Shown here: piece by piece, positions 16,151 through 23,241 of the stretch | How the letters are laid out: the number at the start of each line of letters is the position of its first letter | Position numbering within the stretch: the first letter of the stretch is position 1 | Origin: Paracoccaceae bacterium | GTDB lineage: Bacteria > Pseudomonadota > Alphaproteobacteria > Rhodobacterales > Rhodobacteraceae | Length of the DNA: 64,000 bases | Direction: 5' to 3' | Assembly: GCA_958296035.1 (NCBI GenBank) | Contig: OY282431.1 | Location: 1,057,001 to 1,121,000, forward strand | Made by a program: the position numbers and the translations under genes | The notes under the pieces: generated by a model | What the model was told of the DNA's origin: nothing | Database searches by the model: none | The model's input: only the letters and a program-made list of their open reading frames with translations

Positions 16151-17445
16151 ATGGAGGCTCTTGCAAAACTCGTATGATCAGGGGTTTTTGTGCCTGGTTT
16201 CCGCCGCTTTGTGGAAGTCAGGGCCCGGCCATGGGATCGCCGCTCCTGCCATCTGTATGGAGAACCAACCGCATACGGAGGAAAGGAAGCGATCCCACGC
16301 CATTGAGCGAACCACTTACAGCCTGCTGGAACCGATTTCAGGACCGGTTGTGCCCCTCGCCGGCCGACACGCCAGGCCCGCTGAACCAAGACCATAAGCG
16401 GCTGATAGCGGTGCTTGATCTTGCCCCGCCTGAGTCTCTTGTCCGTGGCAACGCCCTGCTCAGCCCTGGCCGCCCACAACACAGCCGGACCGCACTGGCC
16501 CGGTCCTTCATTGCCAAGGCGGTGTATAACCTTCCCACCACCCGTTCACGCATTGATCGTGTCGAGGGTGATCCCGTGCTGCGCCGGCTGTGTGGCCGGG
16601 AGACTGTCTGGACCATACCGGGCGAGTCGACCTGTTCCGGCGCCTTTGCCGAGCCAGGGGTTCCCTCTCGCCTTCATGGGGCCTGATAGAGACCGCCTGG
16701 ATACCTGTGTCGGCCACATCTGGCGCGATGCCACGGCCATCAAGGGACGGCTACAGGCTGCATGTCGATGCGGCAGACGGCGCGGTCCCGGTCAGCTGCA
16801 TGACTGCCAGGTGGCCATCCCACTGGCGGCGATGAGCGGCCAGCGGGTGACTTGTCCCTGTGAGCTGATGGACGCCGCCTATGACAGCAAGGACATTGCC
16901 GGGCACAGCCGGGCATCGGGTCATGTGCCGATCATTGCCGTCTAACAACAACAAGGCGTTAAAAGCGCATCGCAAGAACGAGGCCCTTGCACGCCGCTGT
17001 AGCGGCTTTGTCGACCCGGAGGAGACGCGCTACAAGGTGCGCTCGACAGTGAAACGTGCCTATGCCGCCCTGAAGGATAATCTTGGCGGTCGCCATATCA
17101 GGGTCCGCGGCCATGCCAGGGTGTATTGCCACCTGATGTTCGGGGTCCTGGCCATGACCGCCGAGCAACTGCTGCGCCTGGCGGCTCCCGACTGACCCGC
17201 CAAGGCCACTTGACCGGACAGCGATCGTCGGTCTGACTGCCACCGTCCGCTATTTGTGCGGACGGTGCGATCACGCACGTCTTCCTGACAGGGCTATTGG
17301 TGGGGCAAAGCGCGAATCCACGCGCAACATGTGAACATCACCGGTAGACGACCGGCGGTTGCCGAATGTGATGCAATTGCCGTCACCATGATGGCGCGAC
17401 GGATTCGAATGTGGGCTTCTGAAATATTCTTGCAAGAGGCTCCAT
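16151..17445 (+). mobile_element. Decayed IS5-like insertion sequence with recognisable inverted repeats
   Basis: Near-perfect inverted repeats bracket a broken transposase: ATGGAGGCTCTTGCAA at 16151-16166 and TTGCAAGAGGCTCCAT at 17430-17445 (15 of 16 positions pair). Ends of the type GAGxCTCTTGCAA are familiar from IS5-group elements. The interior transposase is frameshifted, so the element is immobile by itself. Confidence 0.65.
16174..17195 (+). pseudogene. Frameshifted IS5-like DDE transposase
   Basis: Transposase sequence is spread over all three forward frames. An N-terminal part has ARSFIAKAVYNLPTTRSRID, then LRRLCGRETVWTIPGESTCS and AFAEPGVPSRLH. A middle part in two frames has HIWRDATAIKG and DAAYDSKDI. 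The C-terminal part has RYKVRSTVKRAYAALKDNLG, then GGRHIRVRGHARVYCHLMFG and MTAEQLLRL. The last block (RY..RS.VER....LKD..GGR.IRVRGH.KV.CHLMFG) is characteristic of this transposase group. At least three frameshifts separate the pieces. A more damaged copy lies at 5.3-5.8 kb. Confidence 0.75.
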
Positions 17446-18793: not shown

Positions 18794-18868
18794 TGGCAGT
18801 CCCTAGGGGAATCGAACCCCTCTCTCCAGGTTGAAAACCTGGTGTCCTAACCGATAGACGAAGGGACC
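18794..18868 (-). tRNA. tRNA-Glu (anticodon TTC)
   Basis: The minus strand folds as a cloverleaf. The acceptor stem is GGTCCCT/AGGGACT (terminal G-U pair), the D-arm GTC...GAC. The anticodon stem is CCAGG/CCTGG with loop TTTTCAA, giving anticodon TTC. The T-arm is AGGGG-TTCGATT-CCCCT. Discriminator G is followed by an encoded CCA. Similarity to E. coli tRNA-Glu is evident throughout. Confidence 0.95.
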
Positions 18869-19108: not shown

Positions 19109-20875
19109 CTATCTCGCCGATGCCACATCCTCGATTCGGAAGGTCGGGACGTTCTTTCCTCTTTGGCAATAGAGTGTCGGAGTGCCTGCAACATGGACGT
19201 GGTGCCGTCGGCACGATAGCAAGAACTTGCCAACCGGGCTATTTGTTGCATCAGCCATGAACGCTCGGGTATCTCGTCGGCGTTCATCCGTCAACGTCAG
19301 CGCCAGATGACGATTGCTTAGCAGTTTTCGCCCCTTGATACGAACCCAGGGCATGGCAAATCTTGGTCTCGGCGACTTCATTCCAAATGGTCCGGCGCGT
19401 TCAATGGCCTCGACAAGGTCTACGGAAAGGGCTTGTGAGTGTAGCAAGCCGTCGAGTGACAGGGCATGCCGATCGCGAAGATGAGCACCTTGACGGCGCA
19501 GCAGGAGTTCCACCCTCTTCATGACACGCGTAACATTTTGCACAGGCATCTCGATGTCGACGGTAATGCGACGGGCCTTGCAAGTAGATACGAGCCCCTC
19601 AAGTGCGCAGTGCTCGATTACTGTTCCCATGTCGATACCGGAAACCGATTTGCCGACACCGCGGGCAAGGTCTTCCTCAAGTCCGACGACGATTGCCGGG
19701 CGATTGGTTCGCATGCAAAGAACAGTGGCTGCATGAGGCAATGCGTGGTACGGCCAATTGCCCCCCGCTGCCCATACCAGTGCCTGGTCAAGACTCCTCT
19801 TTGCAGCTAGCGCGAAAGCGACCTCTGCCACCTCTTCAACCCCGGGTTGTAAGTCTTTCCATGTATCTGTCAGCTCGGAAGCGAGCATTCGTGACTGTCC
19901 CTCCGCCCGGGAAAGCAGGAGTTGAGCGCCAAGGTCGATCCGGTCTTGGCAAATCCCAGCAAGCAATACGGGAGAGAATGTTGACCTGAGGTGATCGGCT
20001 CGGCATGCCTGGCCGAGAGCAACTTGATCCGACAGCGCTCGCAAGCCGACCTGGTGCCGGCGATGCAGTTCCAGCAGACCTTGCCGTACAAAGGCCCGGT
20101 TCAGTTCGATCATCGGATTCTCGGAAGCTACCGTAGCCAGCGCAACCAGACCCAGCAGCCCGAGGGCCCTCGGCGACGTCATGCCATGAACCCGCAAGTG
20201 GGACCGTGCTGCCGCCACCAGCAAGTAGGCAATGCCCGTTGTACAAAAGTGGGCATGACCGGGTGCTTCATCGAAGCGACCCGGGTTCACATAGGCGTAG
20301 ACTCCTCCGGGAAGATGTAAACAAACGCAACTGTCAAGAACCAGCACATCTGATCTGGAAGCCCACTGACCATCAATTGCCGATGTGGAACCGCAGTCGA
20401 GACAGACGACCAATTCGCTACCGTCGACCTCCTTCAATCCGGCCCGCAACAAGTCATGCGCCCTTGCAGGTTCAGGCGGAAGCATCTTCCAGCTGACGGG
20501 ACAGCCAGCCTCTTCAAGCCATAAATAAAGGACGGCCATGGCGCACATTCCGTCCAGCGTGCCTCCACAAATCAGGACAATGCGTTCTTTGCCGCTAACT
20601 GCCCTTGCCACCCTTAGCGATGCCTCGGGAAACTCCCTGATCGACATTGGATTGCCAATCTGGTCCCGTATCCTGGGCTCAAGGTATTTGCTGACCTCGT
20701 GGGGTTTGATGCCTCTTCTGGCAAGCATGCGCGCGACTTCCACAGGAACCTCGCAGCGCTGTTGCAACATGAGTGCAAGGCTGTCCTGTTCCACCGACAG
20801 CCCTTCCCAGCGCCGCCCCGAAATAGATGACTCTACGCCGAGAAATGCAGTGGAATCGGGCAACGAAGAAATCAT
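19109..20875 (-). CDS. recJ: RecJ-family (DHH) protein lacking catalytic motifs, probable pseudoenzyme
   Basis: A 588-residue protein with the RecJ fold order and the alphaproteobacterial N-terminus (FLGVESSISGRRWEGL). RecJ is the 5'-3' single-strand DNA exonuclease of recombination and mismatch repair. Motif I, normally D-x-D-x-D-G, reads GGTLDG (104-109). DCG is kept (DCGSTS, ~160). The DHH triad reads DSC (181-183). GTVAD reads ATVAS (~247). The LGPRINAxGR, WHxGVVGI and GGHxxAAG motifs are unrecognisable. Remaining family marks include VNPGR and GVGKSVSGIDMG. The frame is uninterrupted and full length. It follows glpX closely in the usual hom-glpX-recJ order. The start (ATG 20875; TTG 20896 possible) is uncertain. 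Nuclease activity seems very unlikely. Confidence 0.85.
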   Translation of the reverse strand: MISSLPDSTAFLGVESSISGRRWEGLSVEQDSLALMLQQRCEVPVEVARMLARRGIKPHEVSKYLEPRIRDQIGNPMSIREFPEASLRVARAVSGKERIVLICGGTLDGMCAMAVLYLWLEEAGCPVSWKMLPPEPARAHDLLRAGLKEVDGSELVVCLDCGSTSAIDGQWASRSDVLVLDSCVCLHLPGGVYAYVNPGRFDEAPGHAHFCTTGIAYLLVAAARSHLRVHGMTSPRALGLLGLVALATVASENPMIELNRAFVRQGLLELHRRHQVGLRALSDQVALGQACRADHLRSTFSPVLLAGICQDRIDLGAQLLLSRAEGQSRMLASELTDTWKDLQPGVEEVAEVAFALAAKRSLDQALVWAAGGNWPYHALPHAATVLCMRTNRPAIVVGLEEDLARGVGKSVSGIDMGTVIEHCALEGLVSTCKARRITVDIEMPVQNVTRVMKRVELLLRRQGAHLRDRHALSLDGLLHSQALSVDLVEAIERAGPFGMKSPRPRFAMPWVRIKGRKLLSNRHLALTLTDERRRDTRAFMADATNSPVGKFLLSCRRHHVHVAGTPTLYCQRGKNVPTFRIEDVASAR

Positions 20876-20901
20876 TGTCACAACCACAGGGAACAATCAA
20901 T

Positions 20902-21909
20902 CTAGGTTGGCCGAACTCGCTGGCGGTAGACAACCCTGCGCTGTGACCCGGTTCGTGACCGCAGTAGTACGGTATCAGTTTCCAGGTATCCGCTACCCCG
21001 CCGAATGCCGCGCAAGATTGACCCGTCAGTAACGCCGGTGGCAGCCAGAATGACATCGGCCCGTACCATGTCCTGACGCGAATAGATACGGTCGAATTCG
21101 GTGATTCCAGCCCGCTTGGCCCGTTGCCGTTCGGCATTGTCTCGAAAAATCAATTTTCCCTGCATCTGTCCGCCCATACAGGTCAGCGCTGCGGCGGCCA
21201 GCACGCCCTCGGGAGCTCCCCCGATTCCCATATAGGCATCGATTCCCGTACGCTCGGGGGCGGTGCAATGCATGACCCCGGCCACATCGCCATCCGTGAT
21301 TAGCCGGATTGCCGCACCGGTATGGCGGATGGCAGCAATCAGATCCTGATGCCGAGAACGATCCAGGACACAAATGGTCAGGTCGCCTGGCGAACATCCC
21401 TTGGCGCGTGCAAGCACCCGAATGCGCTCATCGGGGTCCATGTCCAGCGTTATCAGCCCCTTGGGGTAGCCAGGCCCGATTGCCAGCTTGTCCATGTACA
21501 CGTCCGGCGCGTGCAAGATTGTTCCGCGTGGCCCCATGGCAATGATGGTCAGCGCGTTGGGCATGTCCCTGGCAGCAAGTGCAGTGCCCTCAAGTGGGTC
21601 CAACGCGATATCCACCTCCGGTCCGTAACCAGTCCCCACCTTCTCGCCAATGAACAGCATCGGAGCCTGGTCACGTTCTCCTTCACCGATGACAACCACA
21701 CCGCGTATATCCAGCAGGTCAAGCTGACGACGCATGGCATCGACAGCGGCCTGGTCCGCGGCGTGCTCATCTCCGCGACCCACGAAATGGGCAGAAGCAA
21801 GGGCCGCCGCTTCTGAAACCCTGGCCAAGCCCAATGAAAGCATACGGTCGGAAAACTTGCGTCTGGAACTCAAAATCGGCCTCCGGTTGGGTTTGCTATT
21901 CCCGAACAT
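20902..21909 (-). CDS. glpX: Class II fructose-1,6-bisphosphatase
   Basis: A 335-residue GlpX-type phosphatase that removes the 1-phosphate of fructose 1,6-bisphosphate in gluconeogenesis. Visible motifs are GRGDEHAADQAAVDAMRRQL, GVVVIGEGERDQAPML (metal site), DIALDPLEGTALAARDMPNA (Asp-Pro-Leu-Glu-Gly-Thr, the metal/phosphate signature), PGYPKGLITLDMDP and GIGGAPEGVLAAAALTCMGG. All catalytic parts look intact. It is 27 bp downstream of hom and close upstream of recJ, so the three are probably one transcript. With the class I aldolase at 9.3 kb it would support gluconeogenic growth on the acyl-CoA and pyruvate pathways seen later in the window. Confidence 0.95.
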   Translation of the reverse strand: MFGNSKPNRRPILSSRRKFSDRMLSLGLARVSEAAALASAHFVGRGDEHAADQAAVDAMRRQLDLLDIRGVVVIGEGERDQAPMLFIGEKVGTGYGPEVDIALDPLEGTALAARDMPNALTIIAMGPRGTILHAPDVYMDKLAIGPGYPKGLITLDMDPDERIRVLARAKGCSPGDLTICVLDRSRHQDLIAAIRHTGAAIRLITDGDVAGVMHCTAPERTGIDAYMGIGGAPEGVLAAAALTCMGGQMQGKLIFRDNAERQRAKRAGITEFDRIYSRQDMVRADVILAATGVTDGSILRGIRRGSGYLETDTVLLRSRTGSQRRVVYRQRVRPT

Positions 21910-21936: not shown

Positions 21937-23241
21937 TCAGATCTCTTCAATTCTGATAAAGACCGGTTCGTCGAGACATACAGACGACTTTCGAATCTCG
22001 TCGAGAGCGCCGTCGAGTCGCGTTCTGGTCGTCTCATGGGTGACAATAATGACCGGCGCAGCCTCGCCTTCATGGCTATACTGGCGAATGCGGTCAATAG
22101 ATACCTCAGCGCTGGCAAGAGCCAGAGCAATTTCCGCAAACGCACCCGGACGGTCGACCAGGGACAGCCGCAGATAGTAGGGCACGGGCACCGCCGAGCG
22201 AACCGGCCGAGCAGAAACAAGTGAACTGGCCGGCTGTCCAAACGTCGATACGACATGGCCCCGGGCAATATCGACAATGTCGCCCATGACCGCCGAGCTG
22301 GTCGGCCCTTCGCCTGCACCCGAACCCTGCAAGGAAACCTGGCCTACCGAATCACCCTCCAGTACAATGATATTCATTGCGCCTTCGATCATGCCGATGG
22401 GCGAATTGCACGGAACCAGGCAGGGTTGCGTGCGTTGCTCAAGTCCATCTTCTGATTGTCTGGTCACACACAACAGCTTGACACGGTATCCCATATCGCG
22501 AGTCTGCTCAATATCGCGCAGCGAAATCCGCTCAATGCCCTGTATGTCTACGCCCGCGAAGTCGACTTGCGTGCCATAGGCAATGCTTGCAAGCAGCGCC
22601 AGCTTGTGACTGGCGTCGATGCCGCCGACATCCAGGGTCGGATCAGCTTCGAGATAACCTAATCCCTGAGCCTCCGAAAACACCTTGCTGTAACTGGCAT
22701 CTTCTCTCTCCATCTGCGTGAGTATGTAGTTGCAGGTGCCGTTCAGCACACCGACAACCCGCGTAATCCGGTTGCCCGCCAAACTCTCGCCAAGTGCTTT
22801 GACAACAGGAATTCCCCCGGCAACCGCGGCCTCAAACCGCAGCCCGACGCACTTCGATTCTGCAGCTTCTGCCAGCATTTGTCCGTGTACGGCAAGCAAT
22901 GCCTTATTGGCAGTTACGACATGCTTGCCATGGCTGATGGCCGCGGCAACCGAGGCTAGAGCAACACCGCCCTCTCCACCGATTAACTCGACATAAATGT
23001 CAATATCCGGCCGTGTTGCTAACTCCACCGGATCATCAACCCAACTGTATCTTTCGAGTTCCAGACCTCGATCCTTGTTTCGAGAGCGAGCGCTCACGGC
23101 AACAAGCTCAATTCGCTTTCCGGCGCGTGCCTGCAAGAGGTTCTGGTTCTTCTGGAGTATGCGGACGACGCCGCGGCCAACCGTACCCAGACCGGCAAGT
23201 CCTATTCTCAGTGTGCCTTGCAAGTCTTTATTCCCCGGCAT
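21937..23241 (-). CDS. hom: Homoserine dehydrogenase
   Basis: A 434-residue enzyme that reduces aspartate semialdehyde to homoserine, the branch point to threonine and methionine. The N-terminal NAD(P)-binding domain starts with RIGLAGLGTVGRGVVRILQK. The catalytic domain has GIPVVKALGESLAGNRITRV, GVLNGTCNYILTQME and EAQGLGYLEADPTLDVGGID. A C-terminal ACT domain (YLRLSLVDRPGAFAEIALAL) should give threonine feedback control. The ATG overlaps the stop of the preceding small gene (TGATG), so the two are coupled. It heads the hom-glpX-recJ group. Confidence 0.96.
   Translation of the reverse strand: MPGNKDLQGTLRIGLAGLGTVGRGVVRILQKNQNLLQARAGKRIELVAVSARSRNKDRGLELERYSWVDDPVELATRPDIDIYVELIGGEGGVALASVAAAISHGKHVVTANKALLAVHGQMLAEAAESKCVGLRFEAAVAGGIPVVKALGESLAGNRITRVVGVLNGTCNYILTQMEREDASYSKVFSEAQGLGYLEADPTLDVGGIDASHKLALLASIAYGTQVDFAGVDIQGIERISLRDIEQTRDMGYRVKLLCVTRQSEDGLEQRTQPCLVPCNSPIGMIEGAMNIIVLEGDSVGQVSLQGSGAGEGPTSSAVMGDIVDIARGHVVSTFGQPASSLVSARPVRSAVPVPYYLRLSLVDRPGAFAEIALALASAEVSIDRIRQYSHEGEAAPVIIVTHETTRTRLDGALDEIRKSSVCLDEPVFIRIEEI

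Follow-up and report, generated by a model that had tools for sequence, protein, structure and literature searches.

Cdc45, a eukaryotic relative of RecJ, is a subunit of the CMG complex and as such part of the replicative helicase; to our knowledge, the CMG complex is absent from bacteria. According to PMC4846377, the RecF pathway has RecJ itself as its sole 5' nuclease. Inactivated archaeal homologues of RecJ have been reported as arCOG00428, arCOG00432 and Sulfolobus RecJdbd (PMC3307487), and Haloferax RecJ4 is presented as a member of the RecJ family that is without the active-site residues and apparently acts as the scaffold of a nuclease complex (PMC10470531). Inactive relatives of RecJ are known from archaea and eukaryotes, and we found no bacterial case in the open-licence literature.

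We identified a RecJ with a degenerate catalytic site in the window, by which we mean the whole stretch of 64,000 nucleotides analysed here. The genome that contains it (G000) is a single contig of 3.64 Mb, estimated to be 95% complete and 3.7% contaminated. The locus comprises the following features:

19109..20875 (-): pseudo-RecJ ORF, 588 amino acids counted from the ATG, the start used in the first-pass annotation
19109-20896 (-): the same ORF with an alternative TTG start at 20896
20902..21909 (-): glpX, class II fructose-bisphosphatase, upstream of pseudo-recJ
21937..23241 (-): hom, homoserine dehydrogenase, upstream of pseudo-recJ
18794..18868 (-): tRNA-Glu (ttc), downstream of pseudo-recJ

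The ORF at 19109..20875 (-) has zero internal stops, and its product matches the TIGR00644 recJ model end to end (positions 5-545 of 546), with 197 bits against a cut-off of 396.9. In Pfam, RecJ_OB scores above its cut-off, and DHH and DHHA1 below theirs. The first-pass annotation had described a full-length, uninterrupted RecJ in the hom-glpX-recJ order, and the open frame, the model coverage and the upstream glpX and hom genes bear this out. The order was read in the window; glpX and hom ORFs are present in all nine loci of the genus (hom is partial in G005), and a tRNA-Glu gene lies downstream of recJ in 6 of the 8 genus loci fetched. The end-to-end family match and the usual neighbours identify the protein as a RecJ in terms of descent; its residues mark it as a putative non-nuclease. 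Elsewhere in the window, a 104-amino-acid frame (16881-17195, +) has a sub-cut-off match to DDE_Tnp_1_6, a DDE transposase domain (E 0.00019), and is perhaps a transposase remnant.

The degenerate form is found in every genus member analysed. Among the 41 genomes searched, the nine genus members each carry one RecJ match of 152-221 bits, all below 396.9, in an open full-length frame; the 32 genomes outside the genus all pass the cut-off, and their RecJs are intact. The first-pass annotation had proposed looking for a second, intact recJ. None was found in the G000 genome (one contig, 95% complete) by the TIGR00644 search or by a search for the DHH family over 17 genomes, in which the other DHH-domain protein found in G000 is of the DHHA2 type. 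This protein (L070:1551-2480 (-), about 894550-895479) was rejected as a second RecJ because it carries the DHHA2 domain; we take it to be, possibly, a manganese-dependent pyrophosphatase. DHH-domain matches in frames of 309-364 amino acids occur in eight of the nine genus genomes.

In a wider sample of the family (394 genomes in 393 genera), 380 genomes match RecJ and 371 pass the cut-off. The nine that fall below it are two members of the genus and seven others, and the matches of those seven are all partial. Fourteen of the 394 gave no RecJ match, and five of these, searched again, still gave none. Among the fourteen are five genomes of other genera with estimated completeness of 93-100% (G044, G092, G185, G218 and G250), in which the missing match reflects either true loss or an assembly gap. 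A first contig scan with the window protein alone as query found no relative. Eight records of this genus of marine Rhodobacteraceae carry names, and all eight are MAGs assigned to that family. One of them, bin131, was obtained in work on the sponge Aplysina aerophoba (PMC5649159), and from the record names we guess that the remaining members are sponge-associated too. A Planctomycetia RecJ-like match (L049:688-2097 (+), 24% identity) surfaced with the genus alignment and was left out.

To map residues we aligned 41 RecJs (9 from the genus, 32 intact); substitutions are numbered as in D. radiodurans RecJ. The roles of catalytic and DNA-contact residues follow the D. radiodurans RecJ study, as given in PMC4846377. 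The regions of the window protein are:

20576..20875 (-): N-terminal region, residues 1-100; conservation in the genus is about that of intact RecJ between families
20549..20566 (-): degenerate motif I, GGTLDG, residues 104-109; D79 to G, D81 to T, D83 kept
20396..20398 (-): motif II Asp, residue 160, equivalent to D135; kept in the window protein, G003 and G005, replaced by Gly in the remaining six members
20327..20335 (-): degenerate motif III, DSC, residues 181-183; H159 to S, H160 to C, the Asp invariant in all nine
20123..20137 (-): degenerate motif IV, ATVAS, residues 247-251; D223 to S
19949..19975 (-): degenerate motif V, SPVLLAGIC, residues 301-309; R280 to C
19733..19759 (-): degenerate motif VI, NWPYHALPH, residues 373-381
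19556..19582 (-): degenerate motif VII, CKARRITVD, residues 432-440; H397 to R
19112..19495 (-): OB domain region, residues 461-588; all nine members match RecJ_OB, OB tryptophan replaced

Aligned with the 32 intact RecJs, the window protein reads GGTLDG for DxDxDG, DSC for DHH, ATVAS for GTVAD, FSPVLLAGIC for LGPRxNAGGR, WPYHALPH for WHPGVVGI and CKARRITVD for GGGHxMAAG. All the motif changes and losses listed in the first-pass annotation hold on this alignment. Its wording that nearly all catalytic motifs are lost is also correct, and 'all' would not be, because D83 and D135 remain. Misalignment was rejected as an explanation, as in profile-to-structure alignments, too, these degraded segments line up with the RecJ motifs. 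We also considered a cysteine site of the window protein (DSC-V-C) but dropped it, because G003 alone shares it.

The six metal ligands (D79, D81, D83, D135, H159 and D223) are complete in all 32 intact RecJs, compared with two of six in the window protein and zero to three in the genus (n=9). G000, G003 and G005 retain D83 and D135, and D223 persists in G001, G002, G006, G007 and G008; G005 keeps three of the six and G004 none, so that no single ligand is common to all nine. D81, H159, R280, S371, Y80, V224 and K353 are lost in every genus member. R109 is also lost in all nine (Lys in five, an alignment gap in two), in a stretch that aligns poorly. Losses in eight of nine affect the general base H160 (kept in G006), R313 (kept in G005) and R373 (kept in G003); H397 is lost in seven. 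Of these positions, R109, R280, S371 and R373 belong to the 5'-phosphate pocket, and the DNA-contact residues mapped are Y80, R109, Y114, V224, R280, R313, K353, S371, R373 and the OB tryptophan. What has replaced the old active site varies from lineage to lineage within the genus.

The RecJ fold, with DHH, DHHA1 and OB in the RecJ arrangement, is predicted to be kept. AlphaFold2, run on a nine-row alignment (A2), gave five models with pLDDT of 65.7-85.5, the best at 85.5 with a pTM of 0.78. The top eight Foldseek matches in the PDB are RecJs of S. aureus, D. radiodurans and T. thermophilus, with TM-scores by query of 0.50-0.74 and, for the best model, 0.74 to 5f55. They are followed by archaeal RecJ chains, and Cdc45 chains reach TM 0.37-0.40.

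Phylogenetic analysis placed the nine genus RecJs on one side of a branch with SH-aLRT 100, the branches being long. When G005, L020 and L040 were dropped, the eight-member group again received SH-aLRT 100 in a tree that included the motif columns and kept G004, also a long branch. The genus is grouped in a glpX tree as well (SH-aLRT 87). The simplest account places the loss of the cutting residues in the common ancestor of the nine. Seven residues that do not vary among the nine depart from the intact-family consensus. A48 and A222 agree with the wider intact consensus, which leaves five new invariant residues, unlike both intact consensuses: C423, S501, R516, F539 and F551. All except C423 fall in the OB region.

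The distribution of constraint along the protein was assessed with domain borders set by hand. Pairwise dN/dS (Nei-Gojobori) was computed for G001, G002, G007 and G008, the only four genomes close enough to each other to give unsaturated dS (six pairs); the identity of their RecJs to the window protein is only about 27-28%. Pooled over these pairs, dN/dS is 0.076 in the N-terminal region, 0.196 in DHH, 0.115 in DHHA1 and 0.089 in OB, against medians of 0.222, 0.115, 0.163 and 0.203, respectively, in an intact control genus (31 pairs). Among the close genomes, constraint is thus inverted relative to intact RecJ, being strongest in the N-terminal and OB domains and weakest in the DHH core. Percent identity among distant genus members (25 pairs) is 36 for the N-terminal region, 27 for DHH, 25 for DHHA1 and 33 for OB, compared with 38, 52, 47 and 36 among intact RecJs of this and other families.

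In two deeper pairs, for both of which dS is close to saturation, the inversion is not clearly visible. In G000-G003, the lineage of the window, dN/dS is 0.235 (N-terminal), 0.143 (DHHA1) and 0.171 (OB), with DHH not computable; in G001-G006 it is 0.082 (DHH) and 0.114 (OB), with the N-terminal region and DHHA1 not computable. Taken by themselves, the dN values of the two pairs are near even or peak in DHHA1; in the order N-terminal, DHH, DHHA1 and OB, they are 0.343, 0.361, 0.431 and 0.336 for G000-G003 and 0.176, 0.233, 0.308 and 0.257 for G001-G006. In the intact control, dN of the N-terminal and OB domains is about twice that of the core. Because of these two pairs, the safe statement is that the catalytic core has lost its special protection, with full inversion confined to the close genomes and the identity profile. 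The core is not free, since alignment columns that never vary in intact RecJ remain better conserved in the genus than other columns (70 versus 54% in G000-G003) and 18 of 73 such columns stay invariant in all nine members. At E values up to 1, Pfam matches RecJ_OB in all nine, DHHA1 in five and DHH in three.

In the surrounding repair pathway, RecO, RecF and AddA score over cut-off in 9/9 genus genomes and MutS in 8/9; XseA was found in eight, in G001 as a partial match below cut-off, and G005 (79% complete) is without both MutS and XseA. RecQ passes its cut-off in none of the nine, versus both of two same-family genomes in the same search. The threshold was likewise not reached by any RecQ in G027 and G029, which have an intact RecJ, so the losses of the RecJ site and of RecQ are not strictly linked. 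Weaker RecQ-type helicase matches occur in seven genus genomes. Frames of 1712-1734 amino acids with such a match are present in five (G002, G004, G005, G006 and G008), and G000 encodes a 695-amino-acid DEAD/helicase-C protein (L071:386-2473 (-), about 2878385-2880472) that scores 268 bits with the RecQ model, far below cut-off.

Overall, we read the genus RecJ as a pseudoenzyme kept for a structural role, with a probability of about 0.75. The loss of metal-site residues suggests that it would be unable to cut DNA. Partner proteins may be bound or brought to single-stranded DNA by its N-terminal and OB domains, either during RecF/RecO gap repair or at the fork, in the manner proposed for Cdc45 and the inactive archaeal RecJs. 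SSB, RecO/RecF and the fork machinery are examples of candidate partners, and the old catalytic cleft would serve as a folded spacer. Several observations weigh against this reading: the lineage-specific replacements at the old active site, the two deeper pairs, the partly conserved core, the ligands, H160 and Y114 kept in some members, and the fast divergence of the protein at depth. That the kept role is specifically that of a protein-contact scaffold is a tentative proposal, to which we give somewhat less than even odds. The first-pass annotation had suggested repurposing for DNA binding or for scaffolding. Repurposing as such is supported, but its DNA-binding version is weakened; most of the mapped DNA-contact residues are lost, Y114 being retained in 6/9, and protein-protein scaffolding therefore fits somewhat better.

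Alternatively, the protein may bind single-stranded DNA or 5' ends without cutting, holding or protecting gaps or ends rather than resecting them. We consider this possible but rather unlikely. The OB domain is kept and constrained, RecF and RecO accompany it in every genome, and Y114 persists in most members, but most helical-gateway and phosphate-pocket residues are gone in eight or nine of the nine. One position of the OB domain, which on our reading of the alignments corresponds to W517, holds Trp in 29 and Phe or Tyr in 3 of the 32 intact RecJs; in the genus it is Lys, Arg or His in eight members and Gln in one, so a charge-based contact is possible. A phenylalanine of the same domain, conserved in 32/32 intact RecJs, is lost in 9/9 genus members, which argues against such a binder.

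A gene that is slowly losing its function, has no role and is kept only temporarily appears very improbable. Over the six close pairs, recJ dN/dS is 0.118-0.170 (glpX 0.048-0.078, hom 0.043-0.111), compared with a median of 0.20 over 32 pairs at dS < 1 in the control genus with intact recJ, of which 12 of 13 genomes were used; the G000-G003 pair gives 0.16 at a dS of 2.3, near saturation. Neutral simulation at the observed distances produced means of 11, 17 and 27 stops in three settings and a stop-free gene in 0 of 1000 runs in each, and all nine observed frames are open across large distances. The computations thus show purifying selection on the full-length RecJ of the genus. Early decay, left as an option in the first-pass annotation, which had proposed a dN/dS comparison against relatives as a check, is contradicted by these values and by the presence of the same state in all nine members at great depth. 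Slow decay would nevertheless account for several observations: different residues are lost in different lineages, RecQ over cut-off is missing as well, and recJ evolves faster than glpX would predict, with genus RecJs 25-30% identical where glpX is 65-69% identical, against about 52% in intact pairs with glpX at 65-70% (n=11). Some of the signal may thus be relaxed constraint at depth. A related case is the neutralization of the homologous recombination gene ruvA reported in Wolbachia (PMC4224334). On balance, the alignments and rates together make it very probable that the genus RecJ is non-catalytic and selectively kept.

The least likely alternative, a protein that is still a nuclease through a rebuilt or single-metal site or on another substrate, could draw on the first Asp of DHH, invariant in 9/9 genus members, and on the ligands scattered among lineages, but G004 keeps none of these ligands, R280 and S371 are gone throughout, the new genus-invariant residues include neither Asp nor His, and alanine at the ligands is reported nearly to abolish drRecJ activity (PMC4846377).

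The first-pass annotation had named Cdc45 as a precedent for the pseudoenzyme, and as an analogy this is fair; a role in replication finds no support in our results. Membership in the Cdc45 group fails, as Cdc45 chains appear at E 0.23 and above in profile searches and at the low TM-scores given above, and Pfam CDC45 matches one of the nine genus members, at E 0.46. It is doubtful, in our view, that this genus went through a bacterial equivalent of the Cdc45 transition, in which RecJ would have become a dedicated non-cutting part of replication or gap repair, with canonical RecQ gone too and the RecF/RecO pathway running without RecQ-RecJ resection. If the structural reading is true, it singles out the N-terminal and OB domains as regions of RecJ with an importance beyond cutting, and a non-nuclease role of RecJ becomes testable in ordinary laboratory bacteria.

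Compared with bacterial RecJ (TIGR00644; D. radiodurans 5f54-5f56, S. aureus 8y30), the window protein has the same domain order, predicted fold and glpX/hom neighbours, but it is without the metal site, general base and phosphate pocket, and its core is no longer the most conserved part. It resembles Cdc45 in being a RecJ relative without shown nuclease activity and in weak profile and fold similarity, whereas its best sequence and fold matches are bacterial RecJs and RecJ_OB is kept. The archaeal inactive RecJs, as described in PMC3307487, have likewise lost the nuclease, kept their usual neighbourhood, diverged fast and are presumed to be structural; they are tied to MCM/GINS, whereas the window protein is the bacterial orthologue. 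Haloferax RecJ4 is reported to pair with a nuclease partner, RecJ3 (PMC10470531), whereas our searches of the genome that contains the window revealed no active RecJ. The feature common to Cdc45 and the inactive archaeal RecJs, a lost catalytic site in a protein kept under selection, is found in the genus RecJ, and this bacterial genus would thus be an independent case of the loss of RecJ nuclease seen in archaea and eukaryotes.
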